A stretch of 64,000 bases of DNA from an uncultured Candidatus Competibacteraceae bacterium. Lineage in GTDB: Bacteria; Pseudomonadota; Gammaproteobacteria; Competibacterales; Competibacteraceae. The translations under genes and the position numbers were made by a program. This document shows, one piece after another, positions 52,646 through 58,488 of the stretch (positions within the stretch are counted from its first letter, which is position 1; every line of letters begins with the position of its first letter). The notes under the pieces are model-generated. The model had not been told where the DNA came from. It searched no databases and saw only the letters and a list, made by a program, of their open reading frames with translations. The DNA lies in contig CAIRMO010000034.1 of the NCBI GenBank assembly GCA_903879705.1, forward strand, positions 1-64,000, given 5' to 3'.

Positions 52646-53032
52646 TCAATAATTGACCCACGTTCCACCTCGACACCCTTGCCGATTGGTCCAGCCATCA
52701 CGATTACCATTGACCCAATTCCGGTCAGGCCGGTTGCCGTTACGAGCATCCCCGCTATCTCCGCCCTGTAACCGAGTGTCCCCATCGTTGCTGTTCACCC
52801 AGTGGCCGCCGCTGCCACTACTGTTGAGCCAGTGGTTATTCGTTGGACAATCATTCCAGTTGACCGCCCGCGCCGCCGGCCAAGGCGCAAGCAGTCCGCC
52901 GCCAATAACTCCGCTAATTACGACCTGTGACCATTTCCCTAAACTGCGCAGAAATGCGCGCCGCGATGACGTCATCGACGGTTCAACGGCGGGTTGCTGA
53001 ATCATGGGTTCACCCCTTCGGCTCTTATTCAT
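52646..53032 (-). CDS. Tat-secreted W-x-N repeat peptide (candidate cyclophane RiPP precursor)
   Basis: The 128-residue product has a twin-arginine signal (SSRRAFLRSLGKW, then VVISGVIGGGLLAPW, cleavage near AARA). The mature 70 residues are Gly/Asn/Asp-rich and contain W-x-N five times (HWLN, HWVN, NWVN, GWTN, TWVN) plus one WND, and end in TWVNY. Aromatic-x-Asn motifs in a Gly-rich, secreted chain are the substrate pattern of radical-SAM cyclophane-forming enzymes (GrrA/OscA1-like and triceptide families). No radical-SAM gene lies in the window, so this is a hypothesis. The start at 53032 or 53005 is open. It directly follows a coiled-coil membrane gene. Confidence 0.6.
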   Translation of the reverse strand: MNKSRRGEPMIQQPAVEPSMTSSRRAFLRSLGKWSQVVISGVIGGGLLAPWPAARAVNWNDCPTNNHWLNSSGSGGHWVNSNDGDTRLQGGDSGDARNGNRPDRNWVNGNRDGWTNRQGCRGGTWVNY

Positions 53033-53041
53033 CGCCAACCC

Positions 53042-53494
53042 TCACCAATTCACTTCATCCCGTTTCTGGCTTTGGCTCTGGCTCTGTTTCACCCACTGCT
53101 CCTGATAAGTCTGCAACTGCTTTTGCACGAACGCTTCATAAGTCACGCGACTGTCCTGCAACCGCTTAATCTCTGCCTTCAGCGCCTCTATCGCAATCTG
53201 GCCATTCCCGGTTGCTTTCTGCAACGACTCCAGAGCGCCGGTCCATTGATCAACCGTCGTTTTTAACCGCTGCAACTCCTGAATCTGAGCCTGCACTGCC
53301 TGTAGTTCCTGGCTGGACTGCGCCATAGCTTGGGTGACAGCCTGATCCTGTCGCCATAAATGCCACAGATACGCATTGCCACCAATACTCAATGCCAACA
53401 CCGTCAGGCCGGCCCATTTAAGCGCATGGTGGGACGAAGATGTCGCAGCGGGTATGAGTACAGGAACCATTGGCGTCCCATTTTGATCAGTCAT
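53042..53494 (-). CDS. Membrane-anchored coiled-coil protein
   Basis: The 150-residue product has a short cytoplasmic start, one membrane helix (about residues 26-45: WAGLTVLALSIGGNAYLW) and a long coiled coil rich in Gln, Ala and Leu (about 48-140). It ends in KRDEVNW, which curiously also carries a V-N-W triplet. The next gene, the W-x-N peptide, begins nine bases after its stop, so the two are almost certainly co-transcribed. The role is unknown; a scaffold or partner in export of the peptide is conceivable. Confidence 0.75.
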   Translation of the reverse strand: MTDQNGTPMVPVLIPAATSSSHHALKWAGLTVLALSIGGNAYLWHLWRQDQAVTQAMAQSSQELQAVQAQIQELQRLKTTVDQWTGALESLQKATGNGQIAIEALKAEIKRLQDSRVTYEAFVQKQLQTYQEQWVKQSQSQSQKRDEVNW

Positions 53495-53755: not shown

Positions 53756-53930
53756 TTACTGAGAACAATAGAGATTGTATGACGAAAACCCACGAAAGTC
53801 AACCAACTTTATCACCATCAACAGCCCATCCATTAAGTTTCATAACGCTATGAATGGTAATGTATGACTATATCCATTTCAACTACTGTCAACCTCATCA
53901 GCGCCAGGCTGATCCATGGCTTCCGTTCGT

Positions 53931-53980
53931 TGACATCCTCCTTGCCCCGAAGGGTCTGCCCTCGCGAATGCGGGGGACAG
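53931..53980. repeat. IS200/IS605-type end, copy 1
   Basis: TGACATCCTCC, then CCCTCGCGAATGCGGGGGAC with hairpin potential, matches the inverted sequence at 54373-54424. GGATGTCA-type ends with subterminal hairpins are typical of IS200/IS605 elements. No tnpA or tnpB lies between the two copies. Confidence 0.65.
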
Positions 53981-54372
53981 GTCTTCCTCTGTAGAGGGTA
54001 TAATGCCCCATACCGGGAACACCGAATATTCTCTGATTCCCCTTTGCAGCAAGCCACAAAGGTGGCACAACCGACCGGCGACAGGTCAGCCGAAACCAAT
54101 GCTTTTGAACACGATTAAGATTTTATCTGCCCATCTTTTGAACAGAACCACATACCTTAAATTGCCAAAGAGCGAACTACCGTCGGTGGCGTCATCGCGA
54201 TGGCCGACATGAAAAGTATAGCTGAAAAGAAGGCGAACTTCGTTCACCGCACTATCCATCACCGGCCTGAAGGCCGAGGCTTTCCGCGCAATTCGGGTAG
54301 ATCCTGTTTCTGCGAAAGCGGACACGGGTAGGACCCGGTGAAGCAGGAAACCATGATAGTGATGTCAGGGAT
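53981..54372. other. Non-coding stretch between two IS605-type ends
   Basis: These 392 bases hold no frame I can support. The sequence has mixed composition and short hairpins (GGCCTGAAGGCC near 54264). It may be a decayed non-autonomous element or the remains of a transposase gene. Nothing else is recognised in it. Confidence 0.4.
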
Positions 54373-54424
54373 CCCCGTCCCCCGCATTCGCGAGGGCAGG
54401 CCCTTTAAAGCGGGGAGGATGTCA
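54373..54424. repeat. IS200/IS605-type end, copy 2 (inverted)
   Basis: GTCCCCCGCATTCGCGAGGG followed by CAGG...GCGGGGAGGATGTCA is the inverse of 53931-53980. It ends 23 bases before the Sm-like gene, so it could affect that gene's expression. Confidence 0.65.
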
Positions 54425-54447
54425 ATGTTGTCCTGTTGGGAGAAATC

Positions 54448-54933: not shown

Positions 54934-57900
54934 TCAGGCCCTAAACCGCGCACCCTCCACCACCCGCGCCCGACCTAGCGCCGCCAGCGTTTCCAGCAGC
55001 GCGGTCAGCGGTTTGAGTTTTGCACCTTCAAAGCGAGCGGCCAGTTCAACCGGGGTTTGCGGTGCGCCGGCTTCGGTCAGCACTTCAGTCACGGCCCGCG
55101 CCTGTTCCGGCAGGGTTTTCGGCCAAGGTCGCAAGGTGGGTAACGGGCTGGTTTCGACTACGTCGGCATCGATCTCGGTTTGGGTGGCCGAAGTCGGTTG
55201 ATCAGGCGCTTGAAAGGCCGGACGCAGCCAGCGAATCACGCCCTGTCGTTCCTCAGCGGCCCGTTCAGCGTTCAACGCCACCAGCCGCTCCAACACCACA
55301 GCGGCGAAGGTATCGCCCACATCCAGCAGCGGGATTAAGTCGTTCCAGCCGTAAGTCGCTAGCGTCGCCCGGTCGATCTGATCGTGCAACTCGCGCAGCA
55401 GGGTCACCAAACCCTGTTCGTGAATCTTTAGCTCTGCCGAGGTCAGCGGTTCCCCGGTGCGAAGCTTGGCCAGCACGTTGTACAGCCCGGTCAAGGTCAG
55501 ATCGGGATGCAGGATTTGCCGCTGTTTGCGATGCGCGTCCAGCCGCTCGCCCAAAGCGCGAAGTTGGGCCTGTTGAACGGGGCTGGCGGCGGGAAAGGGG
55601 AATTTCTCGAAACAGGCGGTTTTGACGTAGACAGAACCCATCCCAAGCCAACTGCCTGTTCCCCTCGCCCAAGCGACATGCACCCGCGACGACAGCATCG
55701 CCAAGTGCCAGGCATCCTCACTGGCAATAGATACCAGCTTGTTGTCGGGCAGAATCGCCGCCTCCAGAAATTGAAAAACCTGATGCTTGGCGGTTTCGAC
55801 GGTGGCGATGTAGCGGGTTAGGCCATTCAGTTGTCGGCGTAATTTGGGATTCGGTTCGCCAAATAGCCACCAGTTCAAGCGTCGGCTGTCGCGCTTATTC
55901 TGATCCCGTTCCGGCTTCACCCGCTCGACGATCCACTGATAAACCTCCGGGAATCGGTCGCGCACCTGGTCGATGCTCAGGCCAAACAGGTCAATAACCA
56001 GCACGTTGCGCGGGATTGCGGCTAAATCCTTGCCGTGGCGATACGGGCGGATGTGCCGATCCAGACCGGGGATTCGCCCTAAACCGAGCGCGACAGCCTG
56101 TTCCGGGGTGACGATGAAACCGCTGCCAAACAGTTGTACGCCGCGATTGCTCAACTCCAGATTCGCCTGCAATGAAACCGCGCTCGCCACATCCGCGCCG
56201 ATGGTTAAATCGGCGTTAATCCGCCCGTAACGTGACGTTAAAACGACCTTGATCGCATCGCCGTCCGCGCCGCCTTCGCCGGCGACCGTCCATAACCAGC
56301 CCGGCGCTGCCCCGGCGGTTCCGACAGTCATCGCGATCCGCACCGCGGCACCGTCGCTGGCCGCGACCCAGGGATGGTCGGGAATGGCAAAGGTGAGGCT
56401 AACCACCCCGGCGTTTCGCGCCACCCCTCCTTGAAAAGGAGGGGAATTCAGGGCGCGTTCATCCGCCACACCTGCTGATTCCACTGGTTTTTTTCCCCTC
56501 CTTCGATAAGGAGGGGTGGCCCCGCCAGGGGCCGGGGTGGTTCGAGGATTTTGCGCGTGTCCCCCCAAATGCCCGGCCACCACCCGCCGATTGAAGGTCT
56601 GGCGCAAGCTATTGGTGGTGATGAAGCCGAACCGTCGCACCGCACCCTGCCGGGTCAACAGCGCCGCCTGATGCCACCAGTACATCACGAAATCCGCCGA
56701 CTCCGGCACCTCCGGCCACGCCGCCCGCACGGCCTCGGCGTAACCCTCGCCCAACGCCGTCCGCATCCAGCCCGCGCCGATGAACGGCGGATTGCCAACG
56801 ATAAAATCGGCTTCAGGCCAGGTGGTCGGGCGTGGATTGCGATAGCGTTCCACTGCCACCCGCGCCGTTTCATCCGGCACCGCTTCGCCGGTCACGGGAT
56901 GAGTCCGACAGGTCCGCCCGTCCCAGCGGGTCAGCGCTTGGCCGTGATCGTCCAATACCGGCTCCGCGCCATCATGGGTCAGCACCGCATCCCGACATTC
57001 GATATTCCCAAAATTCCGCAGCACCGGTTCCGGCGGGAACGCCTGACCCCGAGTGCGGAAATGCCATTGCAGATAGCCGATCCACAGCACCAGTTCGGCA
57101 ATGGCCGCCGCACGGGGATTGATCTCCAGTCCGAGCAACTGATGCGGATCGACCGCCACTCCGGCCAGTTCCAGCACGCCCTGCCGGTCGCCCAGTTCCT
57201 CCAACTGGTTGAGGATTTCGCCCTCCAGCCGTTTGAGATGCTCCAGGGTGACATAGAGAAAATTGCCCGATCCGCAGGCCGGGTCCAGCACCCGCACCGC
57301 ACATAACCGCCGGTGAAACTGGCGAATTTCGGCGCAGGCCGCTTTCAGTTTGCCCTCAGTCGCCAAGGTCAGCGCCGCCGCCTGGGCATCCTCCCAATCG
57401 GCCCGCAACGGCTCGATCACGGTCGGCAACACCAGCCGTTCCACATAGGCACGGGGCGTGTAATGCGCCCCCAGCCGGCTGCGTTCGCCGGGACTCAAAG
57501 CCCGCTCCAGCAACGTCCCGAAGATTGCCGGTTCCACTTCCCGCCAGTCGGCGCGTGCCGCTTCCCGCAACAACTCAATTTGGGCGCGATTCAGCGGCAA
57601 CGCCTCCGGGTGTTTGAACAGCTTACCGTTGAAGCGCGGCAGCGCCGCCCGGATCGCCACCGAAAATCGCCCGGCATCCATCGCCTGCCACAATTCACTG
57701 ACCATCTGCGCGAACGGTTCCGGGGCTTGAATCAGACTGTCGAGCAGATCGGTGAAGGCGCGGGCCGGTAACAAGCCCACGTCCTCGGCAAAGCAGGTGA
57801 ATAGGCAGCGGGTCAGAAAGCCGGCCACCGTTGCCGGATCGTGGCCGGCTTCTTCCAGCGTCCGTGCGAGTTCGGCCAAATGCTGGGCGATGGCAAAGGT

Positions 57901-58488
57901 CACTCGCGCCGAGCGCCGGGTCGGATCGAGATTCAGCGGGTCCAGCCACACCGCCCGCAGCCGCGCCCGCACCGCCGGATCGCGCAAGTCTTCCAGGCGA
58001 ATCCGGTGACTGCGCGGATCGGGAAACGGAATATAAGTCGCACCGCTGCGGGTGAAATCGGCATAGAGTTCAATCACCTGCCCGACCTCAACCACGATCA
58101 CGAACGGCGGGCGACCCTCGCTGACCGGTAGAGCGCGGGCGTAGCCTTCACCCTGACTCCTCGCCCGCAACAGCGCCGCATCAAAGCCCTTGGCGGCCAG
58201 CCCTGGCTTGAGCTTCTTGGCCTCCAGCACGAACGCGCCCCGCCGGTACAGATCGATAAAGCCCACCGATTCTGAACCGTCGCCATGCCGGAAATTGACC
58301 CGTCGCTCGAACACATAGCTGTCCTGCTCCGGCTGACCGGTGGCCGGTTCTGGCAATGGCACGTCGAGCAGAGCGCAAAGCTGGGTCAGGAACAGTTGGT
58401 AATTGGCACGTTCCGACCCGTCGGCGTACAGCCAGTCGGCCAGAAAGACATCAAGCGGGTCGGAAGTCGGAGCGGAAACGGTATCCAT
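54934..58488 (-). CDS. MmeI-like (type IIL) restriction-modification enzyme with in-frame repeat insertion
   Basis: The 1184-residue single-chain enzyme has an N-terminal nuclease domain ([19 protein letters not shown], a D...ExK site at about 75-95), a helical linker, an adenine methyltransferase with motif [13 protein letters not shown] (about residue 400) and motif [11 protein letters not shown] (about 565), and a C-terminal target-recognition region. Such enzymes methylate and cut with one chain and one specificity. Residues about 647-697, between HAQNP and [11 protein letters not shown], are encoded by a two-armed DNA repeat and look foreign ([18 protein letters not shown]). Whether the enzyme still works is unknown. 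No separate S or R gene is adjacent. Confidence 0.87.
56398..56546. repeat. Two-armed dispersed repeat, copy 3, inside the restriction-modification gene
   Basis: Left arm 56401-56445 and right arm about 56492-56545 are inverted copies of the same unit: AACCACCCCGGC outside, then GCCACCCCTCCTT-n-AAGGAGGGG. The spacer between arms is about 45 bases. The element is read through in frame without a stop on the gene's strand. CCTC occurs on both flanks and could be a target-site duplication, but four bases is weak evidence. Confidence 0.85.

Follow-up and report, generated by a model that had tools for sequence, protein, structure and literature searches.

A probable orphan precursor of a Tat-exported, radical-SAM-modified peptide family in the Competibacteraceae

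A small gene on the minus strand of the window (the whole analyzed stretch, 64,000 nucleotides of a Competibacteraceae contig) is probably an orphan precursor of a RiPP family that is exported by the Tat system and modified by a radical-SAM enzyme. The reading that fits best is that of a divergent precursor, fixed in the Competibacteraceae next to a gene for a membrane coiled-coil protein and modified in trans. It counts against this reading that neither a maturase gene nor that of the maturase's partner lies beside this copy. The relevant features, all on the minus strand, are as follows.

52646–53005, minus: coding sequence of the Tat/W-x-N precursor, 119 amino acids, stop codon included; ATG start proposed from orthologues
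52865–53005, minus: leader (residues 1–47), by sequence a twin-arginine signal peptide; cleavage predicted after ARA, region conserved
52925–52966, minus: SRRAFLRSLGKWSQ, twin-arginine motif and the family LG[KR]WS element
52850–52858, minus: motif 1, WND, invariant in seven orthologues
52823–52831, minus: motif 2, WLN, invariant in seven orthologues
52793–52801, minus: motif 3, WVN, with V or I between the invariant W and N
52709–52717, minus: motif 4, WVN, with V, M, or L between the invariant W and N; tandem duplicate in genome G001
52685–52693, minus: motif 5, WTN, invariant
52652–52660, minus: motif 6, WVN, invariant, followed by the C-terminal Y/F
53042–53494, minus: 150-residue protein with one transmembrane-like segment and a coiled-coil-like remainder, co-directional with the precursor

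The minus-strand ORF 52646–53038 reads SRRAFLRSLGKWSQVVISGVIGGGLL...AARA/VNWNDC...TWVNY, and its signal sequence, SRRAFLRSLGKWSQVVISGVIGGG, is of the twin-arginine type. The mature chain carries WND, WLN, WVN, WVN, WTN, and WVN, together with two cysteines; hence the Tat signal, the five W-x-N motifs plus a WND, the TWVNY end, and the two cysteines described in the original prediction are all present. The chain length given there, 70 residues, is revised to 72, the probable length after cleavage at ARA|V, and the start is moved from TTG 53038 to ATG 53005. The TTG is probably not used, as the G001 orthologue begins at the equivalent of ATG 53005 and has no usable start upstream; a GGGG Shine–Dalgarno-like run precedes this ATG. 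Searches of Pfam and NCBIfam with the window peptide gave no match.

Peptides of the window type, each with the same kind of coiled-coil gene next to it, occur in seven genomes from two genera of the family. In the codon-level comparison, dN of the mature part is 0.01–0.28 versus dS from 0.46 to saturation, indicating purifying selection, and dN is well under dS wherever dS can be estimated; since the pair is conserved and its codon-level evolution is purifying, both the precursor and the coiled-coil gene are real. In the seven orthologues all 12 tryptophan and Asn/Asp positions of the motifs are invariant, whereas of the remaining 60 positions in the mature chain 27 are (Fisher p = 0.0003). 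Three linkers vary in sequence, two of them in length as well; there is hardly any change around motifs 5 and 6, and in G001 a ten-residue unit with motif 4 is duplicated. This is the retention of W-x-N under linker drift that had been proposed as a check on homologues, and the window peptide thus shares with triceptides a repeated aromatic-x-Asn core motif under constraint. Both cysteines are retained in seven out of seven orthologues and are rare in the other family precursors displayed.

Of 96 relatives, 29 have homologues of the window peptide recognizable by sequence. Its own genome holds four Tat/W-x-N peptide loci, namely, the window (contig C34) and loci on contigs C37, C40, and C47, and the window gene almost certainly forms a set of related precursors with the other three; none of the peptides scores above an NCBIfam cut-off. 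Among 110 precursors of the family, 83% of core tryptophans have Asn at +2, and the residue after the motif is R in 61% and G in 21% of cases. The motifs of the window peptide are followed by C, S, S, G, R, and Y, respectively, and its linkers contain no Gly-runs; since these features are atypical, the copy may have left the substrate set. Cysteine is absent from most family precursors. In leaders of distant precursors RRxF is found in 40 out of 41 and WS in 41 out of 41, and the window leader, SRRAFLRSLGKWS, has both the RRxF[LF] twin-arginine motif and the WS element; the mature chain, with five W-x-N and a WND, also conforms to the family, whose members have at least three W-x-N. The Tat signal, previously regarded as an oddity of this gene, is therefore the standard leader across the family, and TatC is present. 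Adjacency of maturase and precursor is typical of the family, not universal: for the window copy a maturase gene is present in trans on C40, and the C37 and C47 precursors likewise lack a neighboring maturase.

The maturase gene, encoding a radical-SAM/SPASM protein, lies on C40 (2471–3613, minus strand), directly upstream of the gene for a paralogue of the window peptide, in line with the earlier expectation that the modifying enzyme would be encoded elsewhere. Its CxxxCxxC and SPASM cysteines are intact, and it matches the SPASM model TIGR04085 with 52 bits (cut-off 27); the genome thus encodes a radical-SAM/SPASM maturase tied to the precursor family, another feature of triceptides. Against the full-length NCBIfam models listed all its scores are below cut-off, the best being sulfatase maturase (138 bits), DynA (130), and GrrM (87). 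Its sequence relatives among solved structures are anSMEs, with ChlB a weak match. Across the Competibacteraceae the orthologues are 79–95% identical, many of them with a Tat/W-x-N peptide nearby; 26 out of 39 family genomes have both maturase and peptide, two only the maturase, four only the peptide, and seven neither (Fisher p = 0.0006, a test that ignores shared ancestry). All seven genomes with a window-type peptide encode the maturase and the partner, and in G001 a single contig carries both the window-type peptide and the maturase, 24 kb apart.

The search for the maturase across contigs of named genomes found carriers in Competibacteraceae, Chromatiaceae, Accumulibacter, Acidobacteria, Verrucomicrobia, Eremiobacterota, and Hydrogenedentes, as well as in Syntrophobacteraceae and related Desulfo- lineages. 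Plasmid records contained no maturase at E ≤ 1e-60, and a class-wide sample yielded the maturase or the window-type peptide in the genus of the window only, owing to the few carriers in that sample. Contigs of MAGs labeled “Synechococcaceae cyanobacterium” and “Phycisphaerales” carry a maturase 85–87% identical to that of Competibacteraceae, and are probably misnamed or mixed bins. In distant bacteria the genes form a cassette in the order peptide, pseudo-radical-SAM protein, maturase. Among the 44 distant loci whose upstream sequence was long enough (Hydrogenedentes, with too little flank, being left out of the count), a Tat/W-x-N peptide is encoded upstream of the maturase in 41, a Cys-rich protein of about 275 residues in 42, and both in 39; a flanking control gave no similar peptides in 219 kb. 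The enzyme-and-peptide family is widespread, and it appears to be undescribed. A SpoIIAA-like gene (PF11964) follows the maturase-linked peptide in the genome of the window (L069:1435–1797) and in G001 (L230:8367–8747), and other loci of the Competibacteraceae have a SnoaL-like gene close to the maturase. A role for either gene was considered and set aside, neither having been seen in the distant cassettes inspected.

In the genome of the window the partner, a protein of about 275 residues that has a radical-SAM-like predicted fold and lacks CxxxCxxC, adjoins the C37 peptide. It belongs to no Pfam family, scores above no NCBIfam cut-off, and has no relative in the PDB by sequence. The best fold match of its AlphaFold2 model (pLDDT 95) is ChlB (Foldseek probability 1.00, TM 0.56–0.60, identity about 11%), and in a viral structure library the best matches are Fe–S oxidoreductases and radical-SAM proteins; with E-values of only 0.0016 and 0.0011, it is TM values of 0.5–0.6 and the concordance of the two libraries that carry the assignment. 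In the alignment only four cysteines are invariant, all of them C-terminal, and CxxxCxxC is not conserved; the protein should therefore be a pseudoenzyme, and is plausibly a substrate-binding subunit. The partner gene, beside the C37 peptide, is away from the maturase, and the same split in most Competibacteraceae genomes implies that action in trans is normal in this family of bacteria. As one peptide sits beside the partner and another, on C40, beside the maturase, these enzymes already have several precursors to act on at unlinked loci.

The chemistry of the family most likely resembles that of triceptides, whose enzymes XncB, OscB/GrrM, and MscB form three-residue cyclophanes, OscB being reported to join Trp C7 to the Asn/Asp C-beta (PMC11002830). 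Both have a repeated aromatic-x-Asn core and a radical-SAM/SPASM maturase. The maturase described here, however, falls well short of the NCBIfam cut-offs set for the named triceptide maturases, and what is new relative to triceptides is the Tat leader and export, the pseudo-radical-SAM partner gene, and precursors scattered from a single maturase that serves several of them. Gly-rich repeats with Trp-x-Asn are also seen in the GrrA/OscA1–GrrM system (TIGR04260/TIGR04261), whose leader differs from the RRxFLxxLGKWS found here. The suggested membership in that system did not survive: the maturase scores 86.5 bits against the TIGR04261 cut-off of 310, the window peptide has no match to TIGR04260, and the best TIGR04260 match in its genome (18.6 of 31 bits) lies on the strand opposite the C40 peptide. 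DynA is among the top profile matches of the family maturases (117–149 bits), which remain below the 450/650-bit cut-offs of DynA/DarE. Precursors of dynobactin and darobactin contain a single modified core rather than many repeats.

ChlB, the top fold match of the partner, is a radical-SAM multiple cyclophane synthase (PDB:9gm3/9gmc; JACS 2025 and Nat Chem 2024 reports, cited in PMC12636437); it is the radical-SAM part of a protein fused to an alpha-KG HExxH domain, whereas no such domain was noticed here. Bufferins and oxazolins, MNIO-modified RiPPs with signal peptides, which are called rare on RiPP precursors (PMC12452194), similarly replace the typical leader with an export signal, but combine Sec with MNIO chemistry rather than Tat with radical-SAM. 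Text searches of the literature retrieved no paper on Competibacter or twin-arginine radical-SAM peptides; an earlier mention in the JACS 2022 triceptide survey is possible.

Taken together, these data suggest the following scheme. The precursor would be synthesized in the cytoplasm, where the Tat signal with its conserved LGKWS element would also serve as the leader read by the maturase, the catalytically dead radical-SAM-fold partner probably assisting in leader recognition. The C40 maturase would then join Trp(i) to Asn/Asp(i+2) in up to six motifs, and the rigidified chain would exit via Tat, which takes pre-structured cargo; this mode of transport, we infer, fits modification before export. 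After export the chain would be cut after ARA, a Cys–Cys disulfide may arise in the periplasm, and the coiled-coil protein possibly holds the peptide near the inner membrane. A wider, tentative reading is that of an undescribed multi-phylum RiPP family with a maturase and a degenerate radical-SAM subunit, whose Tat-exported multi-repeat precursors cross the membrane pre-structured, one Competibacteraceae maturase serving several unlinked precursors, including the membrane-partnered and possibly disulfide-bearing branch of the window.

The main competitor, which we consider unlikely, is that the window peptide is of RiPP descent and no longer modified, acting as a Tat-exported, disulfide-bonded periplasmic structural peptide together with its coiled-coil neighbor. 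It would account for the absence of a local maturase, the divergent residues after the motifs, the two cysteines of all seven orthologues, and the conserved partner gene of its own, but fits poorly with six W-x-N/D pairs kept in two genera despite linker drift, duplication of motif 4 as a unit in G001, retention of the LG[KR]WS leader element, and retention of maturase and partner in seven out of seven genomes. The related alternative of the original prediction, an unmodified peptide representing a new repeat type, is likewise less likely than modification.

Even less probable is a different maturase chemistry, for example, oxidation of the backbone or the beta-carbon, a Cys thioether, or a Trp–Asn bond that does not give a three-residue cyclophane. 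The distance of the maturase from characterized enzymes, seen in its NCBIfam scores, and the anSMEs as its solved homologues would leave room for this; yet the W(i)–N(i+2) arrangement prevailing among the 110 precursors is the spacing of the three-residue cyclophane enzymes (PMC11002830), the fold of the partner is closest to a multiple cyclophane synthase, and a thioether would find no cysteine in most members. That the W-x-N are a chance or low-complexity feature of an unrelated secreted protein, as the lack of Pfam and NCBIfam matches might suggest, is extremely improbable: shuffled mature residues contain 1.1 W-x-N on average and at least five in 0.06% of shuffles (p = 0.0006), homologues exist in almost a third of the relatives, and the invariant motifs in their alignments already refute it. 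An orphan precursor modified in trans remains the preferred reading of the window gene.

Signal peptides reported for RiPPs are of the Sec type (PMC12452194), and a Tat family suggests that modification before export yields a chain needing the route of folded proteins. The pseudo-radical-SAM partner may represent a new mode of leader recognition. Since one maturase serves several unlinked precursors, genome mining confined to local clusters overlooks peptides of this kind, as the window gene illustrates. Prochlorosins are a precedent for one enzyme acting on many scattered precursors.

The gene of the neighbor ends 36 bases upstream of the precursor and agrees with the earlier description of a co-directional coiled-coil membrane gene, with one hydrophobic transmembrane-like segment and a coiled-coil-like remainder. 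The protein resembles the N-terminal part of HemX from its own genome (E = 4e-8) over a region that starts at the end of the transmembrane segment and takes in the coiled coil, a similarity that may partly reflect coiled-coil bias; it is not itself assigned to HemX, having no Pfam match to the HemX domain PF04375. Its C-terminus is V-x-W in seven out of seven orthologues, the preceding tail varying in length and composition. One may guess that it tethers the exported peptide to the inner membrane or serves there as its receptor. Elsewhere in the window, a stretch of about 500 bp (53930–54425) has inverted repeats of 59 nt at its borders, 81% complementary, and ends of the type TTGACATCCTCC...GGAGGATGTCAA, possibly a non-autonomous IS200/IS605-like element. 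An MmeI-like restriction–modification gene at 54934–58488 (minus strand) has, by eye, an apparent in-frame, repeat-like insertion at about 56340–56520, in or just past the methyltransferase region.
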